Origin: a virus
IMG/VR virus record: IMGVR_UViG_3300014050_000118
Span: 1 to 26,277 of that record
Length of the DNA stretch: 26,277 nt
Reading direction: 5' to 3' (one strand)
Each line of letters begins with the position of its first letter. Within the stretch, counting starts at the first letter, position 1. The position numbers and the translations under genes are program-made. Under the pieces are notes generated by a model. It was not told where the DNA came from. It worked only from the letters and a program-made list of their open reading frames with translations, and made no database searches. This document shows, piece after piece, positions 40 through 19,223 of this stretch.

Positions 40-61
40 TGTCAGTGCGATAGGCTATAAT
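40..61 (+). promoter_or_regulatory. TGTCAG-type promoter P1
   Basis: TGTCAGTG at 40-47, eight bases, then TATAAT at 56-61. The same spacing recurs at about twelve sites in the window. A weak -35 (TTGAAA, 32-37) is also present. It drives the gene at 92. Confidence 0.75.
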
Positions 62-91
62 TGCGACTATCAACAAACGAAAGGTGACACC

Positions 92-316
92 ATGTCAGCA
101 AATGTCTATACTATCGAAAACCTACTTGTAGGAAAAAACTATCGTTCCCGTTCCGTAGAGGGCGAAATTATCTCAGCAGAAAAACACCCTGCTTGTATCC
201 ACTATGACGGCGCAGAGGCTTACCTTGTAGAGGTTCGCCCTACTTATTACACAACTAGCCGACAATCACGCTGGTATGGAAATACAGTTTATCGCACAGT
301 AGCCGTAGCCGATTAA
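92..316 (+). CDS. small phage protein, 74 aa, unknown
   Basis: The ATG at 92 is chosen because CGAAAGG (78-84) lies just upstream and promoter P1 ends at 61. A longer frame exists upstream but would start before the promoter. The protein (begins MSANVYTIENLLVG) has no Cys cluster, signal peptide or membrane segment. It is Tyr/Arg-rich near the C-terminus (residues about 50-68). The function is not recognised. It is the first gene of the plus-strand small-gene block. Confidence 0.7.
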   Translation: MSANVYTIENLLVGKNYRSRSVEGEIISAEKHPACIHYDGAEAYLVEVRPTYYTTSRQSRWYGNTVYRTVAVAD

Positions 317-318
317 AT

Positions 319-340
319 TGTCAGTGCTACCTGTTACAAT
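319..340 (+). promoter_or_regulatory. TGTCAG-type promoter P2
   Basis: TGTCAGTG (319-326), eight bases, TACAAT (335-340). It sits right after the stop codon at 316 and drives the small-gene cluster starting at 370. Confidence 0.7.
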
Positions 341-369
341 TCCACTAATTAACTAACGAAAGGTCAAAA

Positions 370-462
370 ATGACACTAGACGAATACAAAGAAATGGTTA
401 TTGCTCAGCGTGAAGCGAGCAAAGCCGAAGCCCTAGCAATTTTAACACGAAAGGAAAACTAA
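370..462 (+). CDS. 30-aa small protein
   Basis: A short frame from ATG 370 to TAA 460-462, encoding MTLDEYKEMVIAQREASKAE and ten more residues. It is probably one helix (Glu/Ala/Lys rich). Support comes from promoter P2, CGAAAGG at 358-364 and the next gene starting 2 nt after its stop with its own AAGGAAAA site. The function is unknown. The size makes it less certain. Confidence 0.55.
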   Translation: MTLDEYKEMVIAQREASKAEALAILTRKEN

Positions 463-464
463 CA

Positions 465-608
465 ATGGGAAATATTTTAGACCAATTAACTAACATTGTC
501 GCAATAGATTGTGATGAGTGTGGTGGTGCTGGATTTTTATTTTTCGGTGACGAAAATAATTATGATGTAGAGGCTTGCGATTGCGTAACAGATGAGGAGT
601 TAATTTAA
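465..608 (+). CDS. small zinc-finger-like protein, 47 aa
   Basis: ATG at 465 after CGAAAGGAAAA. The protein contains CDECGG (DnaJ-type Cys-x2-Cys-Gly-Gly) and a later CDC, so four Cys could bind one zinc ion. It begins MGNILDQLTNIVAID. Its stop overlaps the next ATG (TAATG), a sign of translational coupling. The function is unknown; zinc binding is inferred from the Cys pattern. Confidence 0.6.
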   Translation: MGNILDQLTNIVAIDCDECGGAGFLFFGDENNYDVEACDCVTDEELI

Positions 609-811
609 TGTATAAGATTACTGTTTCTTATGATAACAATGCCCCTCACTGGCAGAAAGATTATTCAGATGAATTGCTAGCGTGGAAAGATTTTTTCTCT
701 TTTACCGATTGGGGATTTGCTGATGAATTTTCAACTGTAAATATTTATACCCCTGAATTAAAATGCTATACAAAAAACTTTTATCGCACAGGATTGGTGG
801 TAACAAAATGA
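608..811 (+). CDS. hypothetical phage protein, 67 aa
   Basis: It begins MYKITVSYDNNAPHWQKDY and is rich in aromatic residues (about 12 Tyr/Phe/Trp), as in a small compact fold. It starts inside the TAATG overlap with the gene before, and its TGA overlaps the ATG of the next gene (ATGA). No known family is recognised. Confidence 0.65.
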   Translation: MYKITVSYDNNAPHWQKDYSDELLAWKDFFSFTDWGFADEFSTVNIYTPELKCYTKNFYRTGLVVTK

Positions 812-996
812 TGACACGCAAAGACTATGTAGCAACCGCAGAAATTCTAAAGTTTGCTAGCAATAAAACTCACCCTGCTATCTTTTCTAAGATTGTAAAT
901 GATTTCGCAGAAATGTTTGCGAAAGATAATCCTAGATTTGATGTAACTAGATTTCATGAAGCGAGTGGTTATCATGTTCCGCAATTCCGTTCTTGA
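808..996 (+). CDS. hypothetical phage protein, 62 aa
   Basis: The start at ATG 808 overlaps the previous stop by 4 nt and has GGATTGGTGG upstream. An earlier in-frame ATG at 763 would overlap the neighbour deeply and lacks a site. The protein (MMTRKDYVATAEILKFASNK...) is helical and soluble; residues 1-50 resemble a small helix-turn-helix-sized domain, but no motif is diagnostic. Unknown function. Confidence 0.65.
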   Translation: MMTRKDYVATAEILKFASNKTHPAIFSKIVNDFAEMFAKDNPRFDVTRFHEASGYHVPQFRS

Positions 997-1111
997 TAAG
1001 GTAAAGCGCATACAGGAATTGCGTCGCAGTAATGCGGCGCAACCTGTTCGCAATAAGAAAAAATACACAAGAAAAATAAAACATAAACGGCGTGTTGATT
1101 TGACAGATTGA
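974..1111 (+). CDS. basic 45-aa protein
   Basis: ATG 974 to TGA 1109-1111, overlapping the previous gene by 23 nt in another frame. The product is strongly basic: about 15 Arg/Lys of 45, with RNKKK and KHKRR runs near the C-terminus. This suggests nucleic-acid contact, but no family is recognised. The long overlap and lack of a clear ribosome site lower confidence. Confidence 0.45.
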   Translation: MFRNSVLDKVKRIQELRRSNAAQPVRNKKKYTRKIKHKRRVDLTD

Positions 1112-1114
1112 TCA

Positions 1115-1161
1115 GCTGCCCGCAAGTCTGTGGGGGCAGAACCCCTCTTACGTCAAGCAGC
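1115..1161 (+). terminator. hairpin after the first gene cluster
   Basis: CTGCCC (1116-1121) pairs with GGGCAG (1134-1139). An outer GCTGC/GCAGC pair (1115-1119 / 1157-1161) could enclose a second small GGGG/CCCC hairpin. It lies directly after the stop at 1111 and a TCTT tract follows. It may be a terminator or a small structured RNA. Confidence 0.35.
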
Positions 1162-1167
1162 GACACA

Positions 1168-1194
1168 CCCTGGAATTTGTGAGATTACTCACAA
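1168..1194. promoter_or_regulatory. operator-like palindrome with CCCTGGAATT box
   Basis: CCCTGGAATT (1168-1177) leads into a perfect palindrome TTGTGAG-ATTA-CTCACAA (1177-1194). A near-identical arrangement occurs at 2996-3022. Both lie close to 80 bp before the -10 of a TGTCAG-type promoter, so a regulator site is likely. Confidence 0.55.
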
Positions 1195-1230
1195 AAATAA
1201 ATTAAATAAAGCTCGGCGTGTTGCAAAAAA

Positions 1231-1252
1231 TGTCAGTGACCTATGCTAAAAT
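1231..1252 (+). promoter_or_regulatory. TGTCAG-type promoter P3
   Basis: TGTCAGTG (1231-1238), eight bases, TAAAAT (1247-1252). It precedes the gene at 1282 with its AACGAAAGG ribosome site. Confidence 0.7.
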
Positions 1253-1281
1253 ACTCTTATTCCAACAACGAAAGGTAACAA

Positions 1282-1506
1282 ATGTCTAATCTAATGAAAG
1301 TTCCACACACGGTTGTATTCGAGGCACTAATTGACTTGGATAAAATCCCTGCAAGTTTATTGCCTGCGCTAATTGGGCTTGACGAAACTGCAATTACTCA
1401 AATGTGCAAGCAAGCAACAGTTCATGCGCTATCACTATCAAATACTTTAGAGGTTGCAAATACAGGTAACTATTGGGCAGAATTAACAGTAAAGGAAGGT
1501 AAGTAA
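1282..1506 (+). CDS. hypothetical phage protein, 74 aa
   Basis: It begins MSNLMKVPHTVVFEALIDLD after CGAAAGG. The N-terminal half looks like a beta strand followed by helices. One Cys; no membrane segment. It is followed 2 nt later by another small gene, so the two are probably co-transcribed from P3. Function not recognised. Confidence 0.7.
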   Translation: MSNLMKVPHTVVFEALIDLDKIPASLLPALIGLDETAITQMCKQATVHALSLSNTLEVANTGNYWAELTVKEGK

Positions 1507-1508
1507 TA

Positions 1509-1784
1509 ATGGGAAGTAATTTCGCTATTGACCTTGCGTCAGATGAATTAGGTTTAGACTTAGAAACTGCTATTGGTTATCACTTACAGGGTAATCATTA
1601 CCCACCCGTCCCGCTTTCTATGGTTGAGCCTTGTATCGAAGCCATTGACGCATACTATGAAGGCGATTACAATAAGATGATCGAAATGCCTGAAGGCGTA
1701 TTCTATCGTGGACAAAAACACGCACCTGCGTCTGCCATTATCGAACAGCACCACCTAGACTCTTGGCTACCTGAGTGTGATTAG
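1509..1784 (+). CDS. hypothetical phage protein, 91 aa
   Basis: ATG 1509 follows a GGAAGGTAAGTAAT site. It is acidic (MGSNFAIDLASDELGLDLET...), with central Tyr residues and a C-terminal His-rich stretch (EQHHLD). It overlaps no neighbour. Its last codons run into the GTGTGA-N6-TCACAC palindrome at 1775. No family recognised. Confidence 0.7.
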   Translation: MGSNFAIDLASDELGLDLETAIGYHLQGNHYPPVPLSMVEPCIEAIDAYYEGDYNKMIEMPEGVFYRGQKHAPASAIIEQHHLDSWLPECD

Positions 1785-1815
1785 TATCACACAATAACTT
1801 TCTCAAATACTGAGA
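1775..1815. promoter_or_regulatory. paired palindromes upstream of P4
   Basis: GTGTGA-N6-TCACAC at 1775-1792 and TCTCA-N5-TGAGA at 1801-1815. The same two palindrome types reappear, in reverse order, at 6195-6228. They sit 30-70 bp before the -10 of P4. Operator function is inferred. Confidence 0.5.
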
Positions 1816-1818
1816 TAG

Positions 1819-1850
1819 GGGTGGAAAATGTCAGACCCACCCTGTATAAT
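1819..1850 (+). promoter_or_regulatory. TGTCAG-type promoter P4 inside a hairpin
   Basis: TGTCAGAC (1829-1836), eight bases, TATAAT (1845-1850). The promoter core lies in the loop and 3' arm of a GGGTGG/CCACCC hairpin (1819-1824 / 1837-1842), which could end upstream transcription. Confidence 0.65.
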
Positions 1851-1876
1851 AAAACACCTATCGAAAGGAAACAAAA

Positions 1877-2023
1877 ATGACAACACTCACAATCGGACAA
1901 CTATACACAACTGCTAACTCAGGCGTTCAGGGTATCGTTAAGGAAATTGTTGCTAACAACAATGGAACAAAGCGAGTCCTGCTAGATGTCAATGGAACAG
2001 ACCGCTGGACAACCGCTAAGTAA
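1877..2023 (+). CDS. 48-aa small phage protein
   Basis: ATG 1877 follows CGAAAGGAAAC; TAA at 2021-2023. It begins MTTLTIGQLYTTANSGVQGI and reads as a short all-beta domain (alternating hydrophobics, Gly/Asn turns, ends DRWTTAK). It has its own promoter (P4) and terminator hairpin, so it is a single-gene unit. Function unknown. Confidence 0.65.
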   Translation: MTTLTIGQLYTTANSGVQGIVKEIVANNNGTKRVLLDVNGTDRWTTAK

Positions 2024-2030
2024 TTAAAAG

Positions 2031-2068
2031 GCAGGGGTTACTAAAATGTCAGTAGCCCCTGCTATAAT
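2031..2068 (+). promoter_or_regulatory. terminator hairpin fused to promoter P5
   Basis: GCAGGGG (2031-2037) pairs with CCCCTGC (2056-2062), extended by TACT/AGTA. The loop and 3' arm contain TGTCAGTA (2047-2054), and TATAAT (2063-2068) begins at the base after the hairpin. One element could end the upstream transcript and start the next. Confidence 0.65.
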
Positions 2069-2114
2069 ACAACTAAATAAACCGAACAAACCAAACAGAA
2101 AAGGAAAATAACAA

Positions 2115-2537
2115 ATGGCTAGAGGAAAAGCAATCTCAGTTAAAATCGCAACACCAAAAATTATTAAGGCACTAGAGGCTCGCCTTGATAAGTTAAACAA
2201 AGACTATCAGGCACAAGAAGCAAACGAAGCAAAGTATCAAAAGGCTTACAAGGCTTGGCAAAAAGAAATCGGCAAGTGGGCTATTGCTAATTTCTCAAAG
2301 TCTGAAAATCTCCGCACAAGTTATCGCTCTTGGAACAAGACACTCAATGTTGATTTTGACATCATCACAGAGGAAAACTCTTTCCCAACAGAACCTGAAA
2401 AGGATTTTGAGGTTATCCATCAGCACACTTATCGTGAAATGAAGCAAGAACTAGAAAACGCAATTCGTATTCTTAAAATGACAGATGAGGAAACAGTTTC
2501 CACATCAACATACAACGCAGTAGCGCAATACCTATAA
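2115..2537 (+). CDS. coiled-coil phage protein, 140 aa
   Basis: ATG 2115 after AAGGAAAATAAC. Residues about 15-60 are charged and helical with frequent Lys/Gln/Glu and Ala (LEARLDKLNKDYQAQEAN), predicting a coiled coil; a second helix lies near 105-122. The N-terminus (MARGKAISVK) is basic. No catalytic motif. It is expressed from P5, and a pseudoknot-forming element follows the stop by 15 nt. Unknown role, possibly DNA- or protein-binding. Confidence 0.7.
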   Translation: MARGKAISVKIATPKIIKALEARLDKLNKDYQAQEANEAKYQKAYKAWQKEIGKWAIANFSKSENLRTSYRSWNKTLNVDFDIITEENSFPTEPEKDFEVIHQHTYREMKQELENAIRILKMTDEETVSTSTYNAVAQYL

Positions 2538-2552
2538 TTCCTAAACGGGAAA

Positions 2553-2582
2553 TGTCCTGAGCATGACAACTAAAACTGCTCA
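2553..2582 (+). other. H-type RNA pseudoknot, copy 1
   Basis: Stem 1 TGTC (2553-2556) with GACA (2565-2568); stem 2 TGAGCA (2558-2563) with TGCTCA (2577-2582). Linkers are C, T and an A-rich loop ending AAAC. Two other copies (4126-4154 plus, 24488-24515 minus) keep stem 2 and change both arms of stem 1. It lies in the 3' untranslated region. Confidence 0.6.
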
Positions 2583-2590
2583 ACCCTTCG

Positions 2591-2623
2591 GGGCTTTACA
2601 AGCCCAGTTAAAGATGTTATAAT
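2591..2623 (+). promoter_or_regulatory. hairpin containing a sigma-70 type promoter
   Basis: TTTACA (2595-2600), 17 bp, TATAAT (2618-2623). The -35 lies across the loop of the hairpin GGGCTT-tac-AAGCCC (2591-2605). That hairpin competes with CCC-TTCG-GGG (2584-2593), so this looks like another terminator/promoter hybrid. Confidence 0.6.
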
Positions 2624-2651
2624 TTCTATCCACTACTAACAAAGGAACAAA

Positions 2652-2903
2652 ATGAAAAATAGATTTAGAATCGAAATCTATGATGAAGTAAAAGCAAATG
2701 ATTTAACTCTTTACTCAGAGCAGGGTGTTGATAAAGAATACTTAACTGAAATTGTATTCTCTAATCTACGCAGGTTTAATGGAAACGTAAAGGCTTTTGT
2801 TTATGACAGTATAAAGAAAAAGAAAACAACTGCTTTATTTTTACCAATGGAGATACTTCCAAATAAAAGTAAACTAACTTCTGAGGAACTTGGTTTAATC
2901 TAA
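2652..2903 (+). CDS. hypothetical phage protein, 83 aa
   Basis: ATG 2652 after AAAGGAACAAA. It begins MKNRFRIEIYDEVKANDLTL, has a Lys-rich centre (SIKKKKTT) and alternating beta-like hydrophobics at the start. It is a single-gene unit bounded by its promoter (2595) and a strong terminator (2909). No family recognised. Confidence 0.65.
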   Translation: MKNRFRIEIYDEVKANDLTLYSEQGVDKEYLTEIVFSNLRRFNGNVKAFVYDSIKKKKTTALFLPMEILPNKSKLTSEELGLI

Positions 2904-2908
2904 AGCTT

Positions 2909-2932
2909 GGGGCGGGATCTTTATCCCGCCCC
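2909..2932 (+). terminator. strong GC-rich terminator hairpin
   Basis: GGGGCGGGAT (2909-2918) and ATCCCGCCCC (2923-2932) form a perfect 10-bp stem with a CTTT loop, five bases after the stop at 2903. The following tract is only moderately T-rich. Confidence 0.7.
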
Positions 2933-2940
2933 ACTTCCAA

Positions 2941-3005
2941 ATTTCGCCCACATATGTGTGTGGTTATCCACAGGGTTACGGGCGGGTGTGGATAACCCTG
3001 GAATT
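2941..3005. other. DnaA-box-like pair, second ori-like module
   Basis: TTATCCACA (2964-2972) and its inverted copy TGTGGATAA (2987-2995) match the bacterial DnaA box and face each other. AAATTTCGCCCACA upstream reads TGTGGGCGAAATTT on the other strand, a motif shared with the 9180-9340 region. CCCTGGAATT follows at 2996. It could be a DnaA-binding regulatory or origin site. Confidence 0.5.
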
Positions 3006-3006
3006 C

Positions 3007-3022
3007 TGTGAGATTAATCACA
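3007..3022. promoter_or_regulatory. operator-like palindrome TGTGA-N6-TCACA
   Basis: Almost the same sequence as the palindrome at 1177-1194, with one internal change, and placed at the same distance before a TGTCAG-type promoter (P7). Confidence 0.5.
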
Positions 3023-3059
3023 TCTAGAATTTGGACATATGACTCCCAAGTCTAGTAAA

Positions 3060-3081
3060 TGTCAGTCCACTATGTTATACT
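3060..3081 (+). promoter_or_regulatory. TGTCAG-type promoter P7
   Basis: TGTCAGTC (3060-3067), eight bases, TATACT (3076-3081). It drives the DUF932 gene at 3114. Confidence 0.7.
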
Positions 3082-3113
3082 CATCTAATCAACCAACCGA
3101 AAGGAAATAAATC

Positions 3114-4118
3114 ATGGCTCATAATCTAGAAATGGAAAATGGCGAAGTTGCGTTTGCGCTTCGTGGTGCTCCTGCTTGGCACAATCTCGCTAACCGAATC
3201 TTTACAAAAGATGAGGAAGTAACTACTCAAACAATGCTTGATGAAGCAAAGTTATCAAATTGGAATGTTCGACTATCTCCAATCACCGAACACATTCCAG
3301 AATCATGGAATGATGTTTCTACTGCCTCTCTTGTAATTCGTGACAATCCATTCAAGGAACAAATCGATGTTCTTGCTACTGTTGGAAAGCGTTATGTTCC
3401 AGTTCAAAATGAGGAACTGTTTGCGTTTGCCGACGCTATTCACGACGCCGACCCTGCTTGCCGTTGGGAATCTGCTGGCTCTCTAAAGAAGGGCAAAGTT
3501 GTATTCGGCACTGTAGATATTCCTCGCACAATGGTATTAGACCCACAAGGTGCTAATGACCAAACAAAATTATATCTAATCGTGTGGACATCTCACGACG
3601 GCTCAGTTGCTGTTCAGGCTGCTGTTACACCTGTTCGTGTTGTATGCCAAAACACTTTGAATCTTGCCATGCGTGAAGCAAAGCAATCTTTCAAAATTCG
3701 TCATACTCAAACTGTAGAAGGACGAATCGCTGTTGCTCGTGAAACTCTTGGGCTTGCTCTTGGTTACTTTGATGAATTTGAGAAGGAAGCACAAGCGCTT
3801 TATTCTCAGTCAATCACCGACGCAGAATTTTCTAAGTTGGTTCAAACAATCTACCCTAAGCCTGAAAAAGATTCTAAGGGTGCACTAAAGAAGTGGGAAA
3901 ATAAAATTGTTCTGCTTGATGAACTTTATTATAACTCACCTACTAACGCCACAATCAAGGGCACAAAATGGGGTGCGTTCAATGCACTAACTGAGCGCCT
4001 CGATTACTATCGCACATCTCGTGGCAATTCTGAATCGCTAATGGCTGGCGCAAGTGGCTTTGACCCAGTTCTTACCGCTGAGAAAAACAAAATCAAGAAA
4101 TTGGTTTCGACTTTCTAA
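3114..4118 (+). CDS. DUF932 phage/plasmid-like protein, 334 aa
   Basis: This matches the DUF932 (TIGR03299 'phage/plasmid-like') family. Visible signs are an N-terminal module ending APAWHNLANR, a central strand-rich region (VLATVGKRYVPVQNEELF, residues about 84-101) and the motif VTPVRVVCQNTLNLA (about 172-186), followed by a helical C-terminal part. Length fits the family. Its role is not established; relatives sit in phages and plasmids near replication or accessory genes. Start at ATG 3114 has CGAAAGGAAAT upstream. It is the largest gene of the plus block and is followed by a pseudoknot and tRNA-Asp. Confidence 0.85.
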   Translation: MAHNLEMENGEVAFALRGAPAWHNLANRIFTKDEEVTTQTMLDEAKLSNWNVRLSPITEHIPESWNDVSTASLVIRDNPFKEQIDVLATVGKRYVPVQNEELFAFADAIHDADPACRWESAGSLKKGKVVFGTVDIPRTMVLDPQGANDQTKLYLIVWTSHDGSVAVQAAVTPVRVVCQNTLNLAMREAKQSFKIRHTQTVEGRIAVARETLGLALGYFDEFEKEAQALYSQSITDAEFSKLVQTIYPKPEKDSKGALKKWENKIVLLDELYYNSPTNATIKGTKWGAFNALTERLDYYRTSRGNSESLMAGASGFDPVLTAEKNKIKKLVSTF

Positions 4119-4125
4119 ATAAAAA

Positions 4126-4154
4126 AAATCCTGAGCAAGATTTAAAACTGCTCA
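4126..4154 (+). other. H-type RNA pseudoknot, copy 2
   Basis: Stem 1 AAATC (4126-4130) with GATTT (4139-4143); stem 2 TGAGCA (4132-4137) with TGCTCA (4149-4154); AAAAC loop. It lies 8 nt after the DUF932 stop and 7 nt before tRNA-Asp, so it may shape the 3' end of the mRNA or tRNA processing. Confidence 0.6.
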
Positions 4155-4161
4155 CCATATT

Positions 4162-4235
4162 GGTCTGTTAGCTCAGTTGGTTAGAGCGCTACCCTGTCAC
4201 GGTAGAGGTCGACGGTTCAAGTCCGTTACAGATCG
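4162..4235 (+). tRNA. tRNA-Asp (anticodon GTC)
   Basis: Full cloverleaf: acceptor GGTCTGT with ACAGATC (one G-U), D arm GCTC/GAGC with AGTTGGTTA loop, anticodon arm CTACC-CTGTCAC-GGTAG with GTC at 4196-4198, T arm GACGG/CCGTT closing TTCAAGT. Discriminator G at 4235. Only CA, not CCA, follows, so the tail is probably added after transcription. Confidence 0.93.
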
Positions 4236-4243
4236 CAAAGTTC

Positions 4244-4294
4244 GCCCTCATACGAGAGTGGCAAAAAAACATGTTACGGATTACAAATAAATTC
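4244..4294 (+). repeat. direct repeat module, copy A
   Basis: Contains GCCCTCA hairpin start (4244), GTTACGGAT (4273-4281), AAATAAATT and CCCTGGATTT (4285-4294). The same ordered blocks recur at 6136-6195. Both lie upstream of a TGTCAG-type promoter. Confidence 0.55.
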
Positions 4295-4313
4295 CCCTGG
4301 ATTTCCTTGTAAA

Positions 4314-4335
4314 TGTCAGTGGGGTCCGCTATAAT
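4314..4335 (+). promoter_or_regulatory. TGTCAG-type promoter P8, leaderless
   Basis: TGTCAGTG (4314-4321), eight bases, TATAAT (4330-4335), then only six bases to ATG 4342. The transcript should start at or next to the A of ATG. TTGTAA at 4307 could serve as a -35 with 17-bp spacing. Confidence 0.72.
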
Positions 4336-4341
4336 ACTCGC

Positions 4342-5013
4342 ATGACCAATGAACTAGTATCAAGCGTATATACATTTGTCTGCGACCCAGATGAATGTGA
4401 TTGTTTAATTCAAGTAACATCATCAGATGGATTTGGATTCCCATCTGGTGTGGTAGAACTCACATGCCCATGTGGTCGTAAAACCACATTAGTGTCAGTG
4501 GAACATGCTAGAATACCATCAACAACCCAAACGAAAGGAAATACAATGGACGGAATGACAACAGAGAATCTGCCACTATCGGATTCAGAGAAGTATAACC
4601 CTGATTTGTTAGTTACATATAAGGTGCTGAATGGTTATTCAGATGCTACATATGCTACAGATAAGGTTCGTAATATTGAGTGGGACCTTCACAATTCCCG
4701 CACAAATTCTAAGGCAGTCTCATCTTTACAGAATAAGATTGGTTTAGTTAAAGATATTATTTCAGAAGCATATGCTGATTCAGAAGACCAAGAAACTTTG
4801 CAAGCAATTGCAGAAGCACTTGAGATTGAATTAGTTAAAGAAATTGAATGGTCTGCATCTATTGAGGTTAGCGGAGTTATTTCAGTTAACTTACTTGAAG
4901 ATACACACTTTGATTTACAGTATGAGATTGAGGATGCTATTTATGCCGATTCTCATAACGGCAATATTCAAGTTAATGACCAAGAAATCTGTAATGTTAG
5001 AGAGAACTGCTAA
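4342..5013 (+). CDS. Zn-ribbon fusion protein with internal promoter and start
   Basis: The full frame is 223 aa. Residues 1-60 hold Cys at 14, 19, 21, 42 and 44 (DECDC, CPCGRK), like a small zinc ribbon. Residues 69-223 are acidic, helical and strand-mixed with no Cys until near the end. The long form would come from the leaderless promoter P8. Met69 (4546) has its own TGTCAG-type promoter (4493-4514) and ACGAAAGGA site, so a 155-aa short form is likely too. It may be two fused genes or one gene with two products. Function unknown. The stop overlaps the next ATG (TAATG). Confidence 0.7.
   Translation: MTNELVSSVYTFVCDPDECDCLIQVTSSDGFGFPSGVVELTCPCGRKTTLVSVEHARIPSTTQTKGNTMDGMTTENLPLSDSEKYNPDLLVTYKVLNGYSDATYATDKVRNIEWDLHNSRTNSKAVSSLQNKIGLVKDIISEAYADSEDQETLQAIAEALEIELVKEIEWSASIEVSGVISVNLLEDTHFDLQYEIEDAIYADSHNGNIQVNDQEICNVRENC
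4493..4514 (+). promoter_or_regulatory. TGTCAG-type promoter P9 inside a gene
   Basis: TGTCAGTG (4493-4500), eight bases, TAGAAT (4509-4514), followed by ACGAAAGGAA (4531-4540) and ATG 4546, all inside the frame that begins at 4342. Confidence 0.65.
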
Positions 5014-5225
5014 TGTATTTTGAGTTGACTGCTCCCGATAGGCTGTCCATGGAGATGGCCTATTGGGATGCTCAGATGATTGGGCTCGACCCGCAAGCGA
5101 TGACACCATTGACATTCAATATTGGAACTGGTAGCATTGAGAAAGTAAGCAGGCTGCGAGATAAATATAATCTAATAGAGAGTTATATGTCAGACTACGA
5201 GCCAACAGGATACACAGGGAGATAA
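5013..5225 (+). CDS. hypothetical phage protein, 70 aa
   Basis: It begins MYFELTAPDRLSMEMAYWDA and contains KVSRLRDKYNLIE near residue 44. Mostly helical. The start is fixed by the TAATG overlap. I associate this type with actinobacterial phages from memory, without a known function. It heads a tight run of coupled genes (5013-6007). Confidence 0.7.
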   Translation: MYFELTAPDRLSMEMAYWDAQMIGLDPQAMTPLTFNIGTGSIEKVSRLRDKYNLIESYMSDYEPTGYTGR

Positions 5226-5226
5226 A

Positions 5227-5373
5227 GTGTCAGAGTATAAAGAAGGATTTCAAGACGGTTATAAGTTTGGCCGTGAGGAGATCATTGAAAAACTAAGAGA
5301 GATTGATATCAATGATATCGATACTTGGATCCTTGATCGCATATCAGATATGATAGAAGGCGGGAAACTATGA
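5227..5373 (+). CDS. 48-aa acidic protein, GTG start
   Basis: GTG at 5227, one base after the previous stop; TGA at 5371-5373 overlaps the next ATG (ATGA). The sequence runs (M)SEYKEGFQDGYKFGREEIIE and on to SDMIEGGKL. The GFQDGYKFGRE pattern resembles short Gly-anchored helices seen in many small phage proteins. The function is unknown. Confidence 0.6.
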   Translation: MSEYKEGFQDGYKFGREEIIEKLREIDINDIDTWILDRISDMIEGGKL

Positions 5374-5603
5374 CAGAAGAAGATCTAACTCGTTGGATAG
5401 CTTGCGATAAATGCGGAGATTCTGCACAAGCTAAATGGCAGATTAAAATGGTAGAAGGCGAATTATATTTTTGTGGACATCATAAGAATAAATTCGAAGG
5501 GGCCCTAGACAAGGTAGCCTATGAAATGGTAGAATTGAACAAAGAAGAGAAGGTGCCTGCAATGTCGACTGCAGGTGACGATATAGAAATGGTGGAAGAA
5601 TAA
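5370..5603 (+). CDS. DUF7455-type zinc-binding protein, 77 aa
   Basis: Residues 12-37 carry CDKCGD and FCGHH separated by about 18 residues, the Cys2/Cys-His pattern of the actinobacterial DUF7455 family. That family is small, presumably binds zinc and has no known function. The C-terminal 25 residues are acidic. It starts at the ATGA overlap and its stop overlaps the next ATG. This is one of the better host-lineage markers in the window. Confidence 0.72.
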   Translation: MTEEDLTRWIACDKCGDSAQAKWQIKMVEGELYFCGHHKNKFEGALDKVAYEMVELNKEEKVPAMSTAGDDIEMVEE

Positions 5604-6007
5604 TGGGAGACAGAGCAAATTTCGTGTTTGTGGATTCAGAGGGCCAGTCAATTGTGCTCTATGGACACTGGGCAGGTTACAAAATGCTACAGAATTTAGC
5701 AGAGGCGGCATTCAAGGCCCGTGGGCGCTGGGGCGATGACTCATACGCAACACGTATCGCTATTAGCGAAATGATTGGCGAAGGCTGGGGCATGGAAACT
5801 GGCTGGGGACTAAATGTAAATTCAATTGGTGATAACGAACATAAGATTCCAGTCATTAATTGGAGCGAACGGACCTTTAGTCTTCACGAGGAAGATTCAT
5901 TCCATAACAAGGATAACAAGGTTCGAGGGATGAAGAACGAAGCAATCTTCACCATGGACCTGTCTGCATTCATTGAAAAGTATGCGGACGTAGTTGTCCC
6001 AATTTAA
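5603..6007 (+). CDS. conserved phage protein, 134 aa (MGDRANFVF type)
   Basis: It begins MGDRANFVFVDSEGQSIVLYGHWAGY, followed by a Trp/Gly-rich centre (EGWGMETGWGLNV, residues about 71-83) and an acidic end. Proteins with this opening occur in actinobacterial phages (recalled, not searched), without assigned function. A terminator follows at 6106. Confidence 0.75.
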   Translation: MGDRANFVFVDSEGQSIVLYGHWAGYKMLQNLAEAAFKARGRWGDDSYATRIAISEMIGEGWGMETGWGLNVNSIGDNEHKIPVINWSERTFSLHEEDSFHNKDNKVRGMKNEAIFTMDLSAFIEKYADVVVPI

Positions 6008-6011
6008 ACTT

Positions 6012-6096
6012 AAGGGTGCGGCTATCTAGGCATTCGCCAAGTCGTTAAATAAAGCGTCGTTTACTTAATTCCTTTCGTTTCAGACGGCAGCCCTTA
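6012..6096 (+). other. possible structured RNA region
   Basis: AAGGGTGC near 6012 can pair with GCAGCCCTT near 6088-6096 with one bulge, enclosing about 70 nt with small internal GGC/GCC pairs. No frame is convincing here. It may be a long 3' untranslated region or a small RNA; the evidence is only base-pairing by eye. Confidence 0.25.
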
Positions 6097-6105
6097 TATA
6101 TAAAA

Positions 6106-6126
6106 CCCTGGATCTTTGGTCCAGGG
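6106..6126 (+). terminator. terminator hairpin CCCTGGA/TCCAGGG
   Basis: A seven-base-pair stem (6106-6112 / 6120-6126) with a TCTTTGG loop, followed by CTTTTG. It ends the 4342-6007 operon. Confidence 0.6.
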
Positions 6127-6135
6127 CTTTTGTAT

Positions 6136-6195
6136 GCCCTCACATGTGAGGATAGCATAATCTTGTTACGGATGTCAAATATATTTCCTGGAATT
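6136..6195 (+). repeat. direct repeat module, copy B
   Basis: GCCCTCA (6136), GTTACGGAT (6165-6173), AAATATATT and CCTGGAATT (6187-6195), in the same order as at 4244-4294. It ends about 70 bp before the -10 of P10. Confidence 0.55.
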
Positions 6196-6228
6196 CTCAA
6201 GCTTTGAGACATGTGGTGTGAATCACAC
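6195..6228. promoter_or_regulatory. paired palindromes upstream of P10
   Basis: TCTCAA-GCT-TTGAGA (6195-6209) and GTGTGA-A-TCACAC (6216-6228), both perfect. The same two half-site families occur at 1775-1815. Confidence 0.5.
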
Positions 6229-6246
6229 GAATATCCTATATACAAT

Positions 6247-6268
6247 TGTCAGTGGTCTAATATATAAT
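6247..6268 (+). promoter_or_regulatory. TGTCAG-type promoter P10
   Basis: TGTCAGTG (6247-6254), eight bases, TATAAT (6263-6268), upstream of the gene at 6294 with its GCGAAAGGAT site. Confidence 0.72.
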
Positions 6269-6293
6269 TGGGTTATTAGCGAAAGGATATAAA

Positions 6294-7067
6294 ATGCCAA
6301 ACTGGTGTTACAACACATTAACTATTCAAGGACCTAAGTCAGAAATTGATTATATCAAAGATAGACTAAATGCGCCTTTTACATTAGCCCAAGAGACATT
6401 CGGTATGGGTGATATTTCTACTATGGGGTTTCCTACTAAGATTGAACAGGTATCTTATTCTAATCCCGTTTTTTCTTTTAACAATATCCACTCATATAAA
6501 GATGACGGTATTACTGATGAAGAATATGCCTGCCAGCCAAAACGTGACAATATAGATATGAAGTCACCTGATTGGTTTGCTAAGTCTGTTGAGTTTGCTA
6601 AGACTCAAAAAGATTGGTATTCATGGAACAATTCTAACTGGGGAACTAAATGGGATGTAGCCGTCCGTGACGGTGATGAATATCCAAATACAGAATTACT
6701 TGAATATAAGTCAGAGGGTGATGACAACTGGGTTGTATATAAATATGAGACTGCTTGGTCTCCTGCTGTAACTATTTTAACTAAACTAAGTAATCTTGTT
6801 CCTAACTGCCTGCTCACATTAGAGTTTGAGGAAGAAACAGGTTGGGGTGGGGAATATGAGATTGTCCGTGGTGAAGTTAAAGAATTAATTAATTATGAAA
6901 CACGTTGCTATGCTTGTCAATCTTTTGATTGTGTCGAGTATTGCGAGAATGACTGCGGTGAATTCTGCTCAGAATGTAATGAGGGTTCATGGCAAGATGA
7001 AGAGGCTATGAAAGAATGTCAGACCCACATGGTATTATTGCCCTCTACAGAAAAGGCGGAAGCATAA
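6294..7067 (+). CDS. YubB/Api92-like (DUF1281) phage protein, 257 aa
   Basis: The opening MPNWCYNTLTIQGP is typical of DUF1281/YubB ferredoxin-like-domain proteins found in phages and plasmids. The conserved middle (YSWNNSNWGTKWDV, residues about 104-117; WSPAVTILTKLS, about 153-164) fits too. The C-terminal 50 residues add a Cys-rich segment (CYACQSFDC, CENDCGEFCSEC) likely to bind zinc. The role is unknown. The start has GCGAAAGGAT upstream. A TGTCAG-type promoter lies within its last 55 bases. Confidence 0.8.
   Translation: MPNWCYNTLTIQGPKSEIDYIKDRLNAPFTLAQETFGMGDISTMGFPTKIEQVSYSNPVFSFNNIHSYKDDGITDEEYACQPKRDNIDMKSPDWFAKSVEFAKTQKDWYSWNNSNWGTKWDVAVRDGDEYPNTELLEYKSEGDDNWVVYKYETAWSPAVTILTKLSNLVPNCLLTLEFEEETGWGGEYEIVRGEVKELINYETRCYACQSFDCVEYCENDCGEFCSECNEGSWQDEEAMKECQTHMVLLPSTEKAEA
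7017..7038 (+). promoter_or_regulatory. TGTCAG-type promoter P11 inside a gene end
   Basis: TGTCAGAC (7017-7024), eight bases, TATTAT (7033-7038), inside the 3' end of the previous gene and just before ATG 7067. Closely similar to P4 (TGTCAGACCCAC shared). Confidence 0.6.
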
Positions 7068-7282
7068 TGGAATCATTTACAGATACAGTAGGAGAACATA
7101 TTCTTGGAGCAATTCAAGTAGATATTGAGCAACATCTATTCGAGCAATGGAATGATAAAAATTTAGATGAAGGCTCAGAATATGCTGAATGGCGGTTCAT
7201 GGAATTTGCTCCTGATAACTTAAAACAATCATATAATGAATACTATGGATATAAAGAAGGAGATGAGTTCTACTTATGTTAG
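7067..7282 (+). CDS. acidic phage protein, 71 aa
   Basis: ATG 7067 follows AAAAGGCGGAAGC and overlaps the previous stop (TAATG). It begins MESFTDTVGEHILGAIQVDI and ends in an aromatic/acidic tail (YYGYKEGDEFYLC). No family recognised. A longer frame from 7016 would start upstream of promoter P11 and is not needed. Confidence 0.65.
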   Translation: MESFTDTVGEHILGAIQVDIEQHLFEQWNDKNLDEGSEYAEWRFMEFAPDNLKQSYNEYYGYKEGDEFYLC

Positions 7283-7434
7283 GATATTCTAAGGAAGATT
7301 TAGACAACATGATTCATGGCATTGAATGTGCTGATCTAATAATTGATTCAGATAAGAATCCTGCCATTCATAATTATTTAGTTACCGCAAATGAATTTCT
7401 ACAAGGCCTATGGGCAGAAGGGTATTTTGACTAA
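7276..7434 (+). CDS. 52-aa acidic helical protein
   Basis: ATG 7276 overlaps the previous stop by 7 nt; AAGGAGATGAG lies upstream. TAA 7432-7434 overlaps the next ATG. It begins MLGYSKEDLDNMIHGIECAD and ends WAEGYFD. Two short helices; function unknown. The tight overlaps on both sides argue it is real. Confidence 0.6.
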   Translation: MLGYSKEDLDNMIHGIECADLIIDSDKNPAIHNYLVTANEFLQGLWAEGYFD

Positions 7435-7619
7435 TGACTAATAGTTTTGTGGAATATATGAAGTTACATCTAATTAGCCTGAACCAGGACTTAGAGGATG
7501 CCCGTAACAATGAACCTTTAAATGAAGATGAATATTGGGAATCAGATTCATTTTATATGGGAGCAATAGACGCTGTGGAGCATTTATTGTCAGTGGCAGA
7601 TGATATGATGTCATCATGA
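7434..7619 (+). CDS. 61-aa acidic helical protein
   Basis: It begins MTNSFVEYMKLHLISLNQDLE, with the pattern of a two-helix hairpin (NQDLEDARNNEPLNEDEYWESD then YMGAIDAVEHLLS; each separate). Start coupled by TAATG. Its last 32 bases carry a complete TGTCAG-type promoter for the next gene. Function unknown. Confidence 0.65.
   Translation: MTNSFVEYMKLHLISLNQDLEDARNNEPLNEDEYWESDSFYMGAIDAVEHLLSVADDMMSS
7588..7609 (+). promoter_or_regulatory. TGTCAG-type promoter P12, leaderless, inside a gene
   Basis: TGTCAGTG (7588-7595), eight bases, TATGAT (7604-7609), then six bases to ATG 7616. This repeats the P8 arrangement within coding sequence. Confidence 0.62.
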
Positions 7620-8552: not shown

Positions 8553-8581
8553 TTTACAAATTCGTAAATATCTTATATAAT
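8553..8581 (+). promoter_or_regulatory. sigma-70 type promoter for Lsr2-like gene
   Basis: TTTACA (8553-8558), 17 bp, TATAAT (8576-8581). A small inverted repeat (TTTAC-AAATTC-GTAAA) overlaps the -35. This differs from the TGTCAG-type promoters nearby. Confidence 0.65.
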
Positions 8582-8606: not shown

Positions 8607-8756
8607 ATGACAACAAAGCGTGAATATCTAAAGCAGCAAGGAATTACAGTCGGTGCCCGTGGCCGTTTCTCAGGAGCAGCAAAGCAAGCTCTGCAAGAGG
8701 CTGTCCAAAAGGGTGTAACCTTTACTGCAGAGAAGCCTGTCAACAAGGCCAACTAA
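8607..8756 (+). CDS. Lsr2-like DNA-binding mini-protein, 49 aa
   Basis: ATG 8607 after AGAAAGGATCT. The sequence MTTKREYLKQQGITVGARGR followed by FSGAAKQAL matches the C-terminal DNA-binding domain of actinobacterial Lsr2: a helix, G-x-x-V, then the Arg-Gly-Arg loop that enters the AT minor groove, then Ser-capped helix. The dimerisation domain is missing. It has its own strong promoter and terminator, so it may be made in quantity. Possible roles: compacting phage DNA or competing with host Lsr2 silencing. Family assignment is by motif. Confidence 0.6.
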   Translation: MTTKREYLKQQGITVGARGRFSGAAKQALQEAVQKGVTFTAEKPVNKAN

Positions 8757-8762
8757 TAAGGT

Positions 8763-8812
8763 TGGGGTAGGTTGGGATACGTCTTGACCTACCCCACATT
8801 TTTTGATACAAT
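8763..8812 (+). promoter_or_regulatory. terminator with embedded -35, promoter for 8836 gene
   Basis: TGGGGTAGG (8763-8771) pairs with CCTACCCCA (8788-8796), followed by a run of six T: a rho-independent terminator. TTGACC (8784-8789) runs into the 3' arm of the stem and, with 17 bp spacing, TACAAT (8807-8812) gives a good promoter. The same design is seen on the minus strand at 15318-15358. Confidence 0.72.
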
Positions 8813-8835: not shown

Positions 8836-9120
8836 ATGGCAACACCTGAACAGAAATTAGCAGACCAAATAGCAAACGCAGTAGAAGACCATTACTTTAA
8901 TCCAGCAGTCATTGGTCGTATGCTGGCAAACCAGCCAATCTATACAACTGACCGTATCATGGAACTAGTTTTATGGATTATTGAGAAGCAAGCAAGACGA
9001 CACGAAGTGGAGTCATTAAAAGGCGGGACATCAGAAAGCCTTTGGTTAGCCCACCAATTAGATACAATCATAGACAAGTATAAATCAACTTATGTCTTTG
9101 ACAACATAAAGATACCATAA
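8836..9120 (+). CDS. conserved phage protein, 94 aa
   Basis: ATG 8836 has AAAGGCGGAGAAC upstream; frames starting earlier lie inside the promoter. It begins MATPEQKLADQIANAVEDHY and is helical throughout, with the segment TDRIMELVLWIIEKQARRHE. Soluble. No functional motif recognised. It is the last plus-strand gene before the non-coding convergence zone. Confidence 0.7.
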   Translation: MATPEQKLADQIANAVEDHYFNPAVIGRMLANQPIYTTDRIMELVLWIIEKQARRHEVESLKGGTSESLWLAHQLDTIIDKYKSTYVFDNIKIP

Positions 9121-9256
9121 ATTAAATAAACATCTAGCCCAAATTATCCACAGGTTTTCCACAGCCTGTGGATTTTTTTGTGGAAAAAATGTGGGCCAAA
9201 AATTCCGTTTACGACAAGCTATCAAAATCCCTGGAATTTGTCAATATCTAGAGAAA

Positions 9257-9278
9257 TGTCGACAAATCTATATATTAT
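9257..9278 (+). promoter_or_regulatory. promoter-like TGTCGACA-N8-TATTAT
   Basis: TGTCGACA (9257-9264), eight bases, TATTAT (9273-9278): the same spacing as the TGTCAG-type promoters but with the last bases changed. No gene follows, so it could make a short RNA in the non-coding zone. Confidence 0.35.
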
Positions 9279-9565
9279 CTTTTAAAATGTGGGCAAAATG
9301 CAGAGCTTTATTCCATAAATCTGTCAAAATTGTGGGCGAATTTTGTCGTTTACGACGACATATAAAATGCCCCTGAAAGTTAAAATGTCGACAAAATGCT
9401 TGACAAATTCGCATGGATATGCTCATGTGGAGCAAAGTGGAGGATTATGGTTTAAATTGGGGAATCGCTCAATTACATGAATATCTCTATGTCGACAAAT
9501 AGATAGTAATCCAACATAAATTAATAGTAATGTTTTCTCTAAGATATGCTATCTATACAGTCAAA

Positions 9566-9593
9566 ATGGGCTTCTAAGGGGGTTTTAAGCCAT
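9566..9593 (-). terminator. hairpin at the convergence point
   Basis: ATGGGCTT/AAGCCAT pair (one bulge) around a CTAAGGGGGTTTT-type loop, 25 bases beyond the last minus-strand stop codon. Plausibly ends the minus-strand operon. Confidence 0.35.
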
Positions 9594-9618
9594 GTTTAAA
9601 AGCGGGGGGATATAGGAG

Positions 9619-18140: not shown

Positions 18141-18337
18141 TAGTCTTCTTCCTCAATGTGATGAAACACGATCTCGTCTATAATAGCGAATTCGTCATTT
18201 TCTATTAACTCGTTATGCTCTACTTCGTCCTTAGTATATTTTACCACAGACATGAAGGCTCCCATTTGCTCAACAGTGCCATATACGCCTTCTTCGTGTA
18301 GATACACGATATTGATGACCTCATAAGATTCTTTCAC
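18140..18337 (-). CDS. acidic small protein, 65 aa, GTG start
   Basis: GTG 18335-18337 with GGAGG nine bases upstream, overlapping the gene before by 17 nt. It begins (M)KESYEVINIVYLHEEGVYG, then VVKYTKDEVEHNELIEND. Strand-rich N-terminus and acidic tail (HHIEEED). Small SH3-like or 'modulator' fold is possible; unknown. Confidence 0.6.
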   Translation of the reverse strand: MKESYEVINIVYLHEEGVYGTVEQMGAFMSVVKYTKDEVEHNELIENDEFAIIDEIVFHHIEEED

Positions 18338-18638
18338 TTGGTTTCCCCTCCAGCTCGCATCTTACTCCATATGATTCAATCATGCTTTTAATTTTCATAA
18401 CACGATCAATAGCTATTTCTTTTCTTGTTCCGTGAAACTGTAAAAAATTGTCTTCATATAGCCTAATTGCTAAGAACTCTGGATATTGTGCAATATCCAC
18501 TAGGAGGTCTGGTAAATCTTTAATTAATTCTTTAAACTTTATTGCCATCTCTTTTGTATAGAATACAGGCTTATTTGGCTCGCCTGTCCATTGATTAATT
18601 CCGTATTTAAAGTGATCCTTGTCTTTATTAATGAACAC
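18321..18638 (-). CDS. phage protein, 105 aa, GTG start
   Basis: GTG 18636-18638 with AAGGAG five bases upstream. It begins (M)FINKDKDHFKYGINQWTGEP and carries NKPVFYTKEMAIKFKELIKD. No motif recognised. Overlaps the WhiB stop by 11 nt, so probably co-expressed with it. Confidence 0.65.
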   Translation of the reverse strand: MFINKDKDHFKYGINQWTGEPNKPVFYTKEMAIKFKELIKDLPDLLVDIAQYPEFLAIRLYEDNFLQFHGTRKEIAIDRVMKIKSMIESYGVRCELEGKPSERIL

Positions 18639-18939
18639 CTTTACTCCTTAATCTTTTCCAAGTATCGGCAGTTTTATGCAAATTCTTGCTTTTATCAATA
18701 TCTCCAGAGCTTAAATATACACCGCCCCAAACACCATATTCGTCGTTTTCAACTCCAGATTCATGACACATCCTGACAACTGGACAACTTAAACATGCTT
18801 CATCAATATTTTTTGCTATGTTAGCGTCTGCCTCGTATTTATCGTAGAACAGATTTGTATCCATACCACGACAAACGGCTAAATGCCACCAATCAAAATC
18901 TTCTTTATCTATACCTAAATCATTTAAAATATTTGACAT
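18628..18939 (-). CDS. WhiB-family Fe-S transcription regulator, 103 aa
   Basis: Four Cys in the WhiB spacing: Cys23, Cys49, Cys52, Cys58 (CRGMD; CLSCPVVRMC), followed by the diagnostic GVWGG turn (residues 69-73) and a basic C-terminus (TWKRLRSKG). WhiB proteins bind a [4Fe-4S] cluster, attach to sigma-A and alter promoter choice; phage examples include TM4 WhiB, which blocks host WhiB2. The start is placed at MSNILNDLG (18939), where overlap with the gene before is least; an upstream MIKELGF start (18972) is possible. Confidence 0.9.
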   Translation of the reverse strand: MSNILNDLGIDKEDFDWWHLAVCRGMDTNLFYDKYEADANIAKNIDEACLSCPVVRMCHESGVENDEYGVWGGVYLSSGDIDKSKNLHKTADTWKRLRSKGVH

Positions 18940-19153
18940 ATTTTTTTGGAAGAACCCAAGTTCCTTTATCATTGACTGATATCTTATCAGCCACACCCCA
19001 AGCATTTTGCCTGAATACGCCTTTTGTATTTATAAATCCATTATAGTCTTTTGTCCAAAGTATCAGGTCATAACTTTCCCAATAAGCATCTTTAGTTATA
19101 GATTTAAATTTTTTTATAAAAAGCTCTACACCTAATTCATTTAAATGTAACAT
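18920..19153 (-). CDS. hypothetical phage protein, 77 aa
   Basis: ATG 19151-19153 with AAGGATAT upstream. It begins MLHLNELGVELFIKKFKSIT, then AYWESYDLILWTKDYNG. Mixed alpha/beta, two Trp-rich segments, no Cys. Overlaps the start of whiB. A TATAAT lies at 19191-19196. Function unknown. Confidence 0.65.
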   Translation of the reverse strand: MLHLNELGVELFIKKFKSITKDAYWESYDLILWTKDYNGFINTKGVFRQNAWGVADKISVNDKGTWVLPKKYVKYFK

Positions 19154-19223
19154 ATATCCTTAAATGACTAACCGCAGCATCCCATATATAATTATACATG
19201 AGTTGCTACGGCTATGTCAACAA

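Follow-up and report, generated by a model that had tools for sequence, protein, structure and literature searches.

Phage promoter classes that redirect the main RNA polymerase of the host are well understood in only a handful of phages, T4 foremost. T4 middle promoters carry a MotA box centred at about -30, and about half of them have an extended -10 (PMC6755090). A different kind of repeat, the short asymmetric SAS of the cluster K mycobacteriophages, precedes many genes, mostly in one orientation (PMC3203893). Here, we analyze the viral record IMGVR_UViG_3300014050_000118 (positions 1 to 26,277; this whole stretch of 26,277 nucleotides is called the window) and its relatives, in which a promoter class of the form TGTCRG-N10-TATAAT appears, from sequence, to start almost every small gene in one genome block of a large uncultured phage family. 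In a literature search for TGTCAG as a phage promoter motif, none of the papers listed describes such a class. We favor, with a probability of roughly 0.58, the reading that these are sigma-A promoters in which a putative, probably phage-encoded protein reads the TGTCRG box within the spacer and does the work of the -35 element.

The first-pass annotation of the window had listed eleven sites in which TGTCAG is followed after exactly ten bases by a -10-like hexamer, and all eleven coordinates proved exact. The looser pattern TGTCAG-N10-TANNNT has 12 matches on the plus strand, spanning 40-7609, and none on the minus strand, in line with the strand bias that had been claimed. Dinucleotide-preserving shuffles, the check set by that annotation, averaged 0.35 matches and never exceeded 2, far below the rate seen in the window, so that the pattern is not refuted on this count. 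An unprompted tally of all hexamers at all distances ahead of TANNNT put TGTCAG-N10 at the top of the list in the window and no lower than fourth in three related loci. A scan of viral contigs with AATGTCAG-N10-TATAAT recovered at least 120 stretches, and a second scan used the TGTCGG form, its breadth again a lower bound. The family counts rest on the matches listed from both scans and set a lower bound on the breadth of the class; the sites counted are related by descent, and the P values take no account of phylogeny. Among the matches listed for the first set of related loci, the spacing histogram has 640 sites at N10 versus about 3 to 22 at most spacings, with smaller excesses of TANNNT after the box at N5 (120) and at some of N12 to N19 (36 to 75). 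These lesser peaks occur in the histograms of loci L009-L128 and L215-L321.

While the box reads TGTCAG in the window, as first described, the family as a whole has TGTCRG. The logo of 461 deduplicated sites is WWW-TGTCAG-(T/A)(C/G)(C/G), with an extended -10 and TATAAT downstream; of the three bases behind the box, the last two are mostly GG or CC, giving TGG or ACC, and TGTCGG accompanies ACC in 0/136 and TGG in 60/215. To guard against circularity, a promoter set was chosen blind to the box, by -10, GAAAGG and start codon only. TGTCRG stands at exactly N10 in 158 of its 172 members (92%), comprising 142 with TGTCAG and 16 with one mismatch, all of them TGTCGG. A second set of 292 promoters has TGTCGG in 125, TGTCAG in 112, and TGTCTG in 8, and records pure for either of the first two forms occur. 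The box is asymmetric, and its orientation relative to its -10 is always the same. Lineages in which nearly all boxes are TGTCRGTGG have mostly lost the extended -10 TG (2/14 in L107 and 1/9 in L123). In one lineage (L047, G019), all ten boxes are TGTCAGACC and 9 of the 10 -10 elements are degenerate (TAGGNT or the like), which gives the impression that the box compensates for a weak -10.

The earlier remark that most sites lack a normal -35 holds family-wide. A -35 within one mismatch at 16 to 18 bp is absent in 84% of box promoters and kept in 16% (control register, 0.7%), which sets them apart from ordinary sigma-A promoters; the counts are 61/380 with the box versus 26/58 without it (P = 3e-6). 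An asymmetric, one-way box at a fixed spacing, combined with poor -35s, points to a factor that contacts the polymerase.

The start codons give these elements a place relative to the transcription start. Among 579 family sites, a start codon lies 6 or 7 bases past the -10 in 28 and 23 cases, respectively, versus 0 to 3 at each gap of 3 to 5 and 8 to 11; 45 of these gap-6/7 codons open frames of at least 40 codons, and 27 of the 28 gap-six cases have no recognizable ribosome site. This peak suggests leaderless messages that start at the ATG, which would make the ATG +1, so that the -10 spans -12 to -7 and the box -28 to -23. In the window, the sites at 4314 (ATG 4342) and 7588 (ATG 7616) are of this type. 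By inference, then, the sites are working promoters. The box keeps its position relative to the -10 and varies relative to the start codon. Hence, although the cluster K SAS and its extended form ESAS resemble the box as short asymmetric repeats before many genes and mainly in one orientation, SAS (GGGATAGGAGCCC) goes with the start codon, whereas the box is a spacer element fixed to the -10; ESAS comprises paired 17-bp inverted repeats, while no general inverted repeat surrounds the boxes.

Three sites flagged at the outset as lying inside coding sequence are conserved promoters, down to synonymous codons. The one at 4493 keeps box and -10 at the same codon in 39 of 51 aligned orthologs, and those at 7017 and 7588 are conserved in 32/41 and 26/31. 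At 7017, the box is spelled by the codons TGT CAG: 31 orthologs encode Cys-Gln-Thr there and 32 have an exact TGTCAG box, whereas elsewhere in these phages Cys-Gln takes the TGTCAG spelling in 15 of 43 cases only. The open reading frame (ORF) 4342-5013 contains both a leaderless start at 4342 and, behind the internal promoter at 4493, an in-frame start at 4546. Relatives show the same two promoters at a distance of about 180 bp, and two protein forms are therefore likely from this frame.

Ordinary promoters exist beside the box class. In nine records, the strand of the block has 79 box and 43 ordinary promoters versus 3 and 73 on the main strand; ordinary-promoter matches at control spacings number 10 to 16. 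The first-pass annotation had the class driving the plus-strand block of the window. It does supply promoters there, but not alone, since ordinary -35/-10 promoters also occur on that strand, at 2618, 8576, and 8807. TTGACA-N17/18 promoters serve the main strand, as they do in the Streptomyces and Rhodococcus relatives. The Stanwilliamsviridae Jada and Bmoc and the phage Trina have related genomes with many promoters before small genes, but where the present family has the box they use TTGACA-N17/18 promoters, dozens of them, with TGTCRG-N10 matches numbering no more than four per genome (Jada 0, Trina 4).

This distribution bears on two explanations that dispense with an activator. The box could be the operator of a repressor that shuts off a block of autonomous extended -10 promoters; promoter spacers are often bound by repressors, and an extended -10 TG is found in about half of the box promoters (199/380). 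An operator need not replace a -35, however, and the asymmetry, single orientation, and single spacing of the box, together with the poor -35s and the ordinary promoters that lack a box in the same block, are hard to explain in this way, so that we consider a repressor improbable.

The binding element of lambda Q also lies between -35 and -10, at one promoter per genome. By analogy with this placement, the box might be a loading site for a Q-type antiterminator or an intrinsic spacer element acting through DNA shape or core contact, and the positions after the box that are G or C either way (TGG or ACC) would suit shape or minor-groove reading. Six near-invariant bases seem too specific for an intrinsic spacer effect, though, main-strand promoters and related phages manage without the box, and the family has about 10 to 25 box promoters per genome where lambda Q has its single one. 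We regard this explanation as the least probable of those considered, very slightly behind the operator.

We return, then, to a dedicated factor. The first-pass annotation had proposed a regulator or a special sigma factor reading the spacer. The fixed geometry and the position of the box in a normal spacer are borne out, and a dedicated factor is the most likely reader; the special sigma factor fares badly. A search for sigma70 region 2 was negative in all 17 records and positive in 10 of 14 control genomes, and the TATAAT with extended -10 is of the ordinary sigma-A type, unlike the promoters of phage alternative sigma factors. In the mechanism that we favor, the sigma-A RNA polymerase of the host would use the sites, with WWWTGTCRG at about -31 to -23, and a sequence-specific DNA-binding protein would read the box, touch the polymerase, and take over the function of the -35. 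This reader would be phage encoded and activating, and it may serve to switch on the block as a set, independently of the genes on the other strand, which TTGACA promoters drive. The nearest model by analogy is the sigma appropriation of T4. T4 middle promoters likewise have a good -10, extended in about half, and a phage-specific box shared by a whole gene set; their box takes over from the -35, as the box here would in the 84% of promoters that lack one. The sequence and geometry of the box nevertheless keep the present class out of the T4 middle promoters: TGTCRG is centred near -25.5, some 5 bp closer to the start, 16% of the promoters retain a -35, and the phage families are distant. Profiles PF09114 and PF09010 (MotA and AsiA) had no match in 15 records, in a search whose controls contained no positive.

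WhiB, named in the first-pass annotation as a candidate regulator, may have a part in this mechanism. The window encodes a WhiB-like protein at 18628..19005 on the minus strand (Pfam PF02467, E = 1.2e-11; PDB 8cyf and 8dy7), whose nearest solved relatives are WhiB3 and WhiB, and a conserved protein adjoins it at 18321..18638 on the same strand. Upstream of the operon is an ordinary TTGACA-N18-TATAAT promoter (19191..19220, minus strand), one of several ordinary promoters on the minus strand of the window; a TTGACA-N18 promoter also stands in that place in G001, G002, G008, and G009. Behind this strong ordinary promoter, WhiB would be expected to hold region 4 of sigma-A and is a plausible cofactor, in the manner of AsiA for MotA. 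One could go further and suppose that WhiB, bound to region 4, reads TGTCRG itself, alone or with its neighbor, with no separate DNA-binding protein. WhiB is encoded by 24 of 29 class records and by all 12 of the second set, the neighbor by all 10 family records compared, and the operon has its TTGACA-N18 promoter in 5 of 10; moreover, region 4 of sigma-A is a known target of Wbl proteins (PMC10245118). The DNA contacts known for Wbl proteins, however, are at or upstream of the -35 and not at -28 to -23 (PMC10245118). WhiB also occurs in Jada and Trina, and the neighbor in Jada, in spite of the TTGACA-N17/18 promoters that these two phages use. WhiB alone, therefore, cannot define the class, and we think it unlikely, if the strongest of the rivals, that it is the reader.

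Somewhat less likely still is a regulator of the host, borrowed by the phage, which would make the class active from the first moment of infection. The block of small genes with DUF932 resembles the terminal-repeat block of Samistivirus relatives and is plausibly early, and the GACA core on the other strand of the box resembles the WhiA motif GACAC (PMC3781837), which together with the phage-encoded WhiB is reminiscent of WhiB/WhiA coactivation. WhiA needs GTGTC in the orientation of the box, though, and a G precedes TGTC in just 3% of the 461 sites, so that host WhiA was rejected as the reader; a search for the WhiA helix-turn-helix in the phages yielded none above the cutoff. Scanning one genome from each of 84,980 species for the box with TGN, TAYAAT, and CGAAAGG returned six scattered, unrelated hits, close to chance (estimate, 2 to 3), in a scan that required the phage-style ribosome site and would miss a host box with another leader. 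Since the full composite was seen as a set in none of the cellular genomes scanned and phage lineages have their own box preferences, we infer that a phage-encoded reader is favored.

Three points weigh against the phage-encoded activator. First, the reader was not found among the proteins that are conserved in phages with the class but missing from Jada, Trina, and Bmoc, which are enzymes, secreted, membrane, and lysis-type proteins, and small uncharacterized ones, several of them encoded in the block. Second, if the block is expressed first upon infection, the reader would have to be host encoded or carried in the virion. Third, displacement of sigma region 4, as in T4, probably does not occur, given the 16% with a decent -35; with about one in six promoters keeping a -35 directly upstream of the box, region 4 probably stays in place. 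A more specific version, a novel reprogramming of sigma-A in which a phage protein reads the box at -28 to -23, flanked by the DNA sites of sigma regions 4 and 3 and next to a region 4 held by WhiB, with a family box that drifts between TGTCAG and TGTCGG, is offered tentatively, at somewhat less than even odds. If true, sigma appropriation would have an actinobacterial counterpart whose geometry is new. The class offers hundreds of natural variants, a TGTCAG-to-TGTCGG change, and leaderless genes that mark the start, and the motif is a concrete bait for the regulator and for testing the function of phage WhiB.

Several individual proteins were considered as the reader. A 48-amino-acid helix-turn-helix protein with weak similarity to sigma region 4, present in 8/8 relatives, is also found in Bmoc, Jada, and Trina and hence is unspecific, and a MerR-like helix-turn-helix protein (phrog_9440) is shared with Streptomyces phages and Trina. 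The 48-amino-acid protein encoded in the block at 1877-2023 has a generic SH3/Tudor barrel fold and no informative match. Its family is present in 8/8 large relatives plus G011 (orthologs in L018, L025, L045, and L068), sometimes with two copies per block, and was not seen in the three isolates compared.

Most of the relatives' records may be incomplete, but two large ones have an exact terminal overlap that yields circular maps of about 115 kb. In large relatives, nearly all genes are on one strand, save a single block of some 15 kb on the other, and the clustered box sites all lie within that minority-strand block. The portal protein is 55 to 58% identical to that of Stanwilliamsviridae of Streptomyces, and this relationship, along with WhiB, points to actinobacterial hosts. 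The isolated Planktophila phages of one study have 39-kb genomes and encode a sigma-70 factor (PMC10202952); they look like a different group from the box phages.

In the window, the sites precede small genes, as originally reported, and all are on the plus strand. Exact matches with a CGAAAGG leader are found at 40..61, which serves ORF 92-316 with that ribosome site and also has TTGAAA at 18 bp, at 319..340 for a short ORF from 370, and at 1231..1252 for ORF 1282-1506. Further exact matches are those at 1829..1850, upstream of the SH3-like protein; 2047..2068, for ORF 2115-2537; 3060..3081, for the DUF932 gene 3114-4118 (E = 5e-55); and 6247..6268, for ORF 6294-7067, with a GCGAAAGG leader. 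The promoter at 4314..4335 precedes the leaderless long form of ORF 4342-5013, whose ATG lies six bases past the -10, and that at 4493..4514 lies within the same frame. The promoter at 7017..7038, in the 3' end of ORF 6294-7067, would serve a gene starting near 7067, and that at 7588..7609, within ORF 7434-7619, has its leaderless ATG six bases past the -10. The twelfth pattern match, at 93..114, overlaps the start codon of ORF 92-316, has no leader gene and carries an atypical CAA after the box; it is probably a coding coincidence. The sites at 319, 1829, and 2047 had suggested variable stem-loops around the box, which show no fixed pairing register; a slight excess of complementarity around boxes stems largely from one orthologous promoter, and the CAGGGG..CCCCTG inverted repeat that flanks the box at 2047 is specific to that locus and not a feature of the class.

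The ordinary plus-strand promoters are TTTACA-N17-TATAAT at 2595..2623, for ORF 2652-2903; the same type at 8553..8581, for a 49-amino-acid Lsr2-like gene (8607-8756); and TTGACC-N17-TACAAT at 8784..8812, for ORF 8836-9120. TTTACA promoters like the second occur in relatives L071, L101, L041, and L022, and the similarity of the 49-amino-acid protein to Lsr2-like DNA-bridging proteins is confined to a short stretch of them. Another repeat, approximately CCTGGAATT combined with TGAGATTANTCACA or TTACGGATNNCAAATA, is found at 1165-1190, 2998-3030, 4270-4310, and 6165-6225, no more than some 110 bp ahead of the boxes at 1231, 3060, 4314, and 6247, and is possibly the site of a further regulator. 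Finally, the gene blocks converge on a noncoding stretch at 9121-9600 that contains many ATGTCGACAAAT-like and related repeats and is possibly an origin or an array of binding sites.

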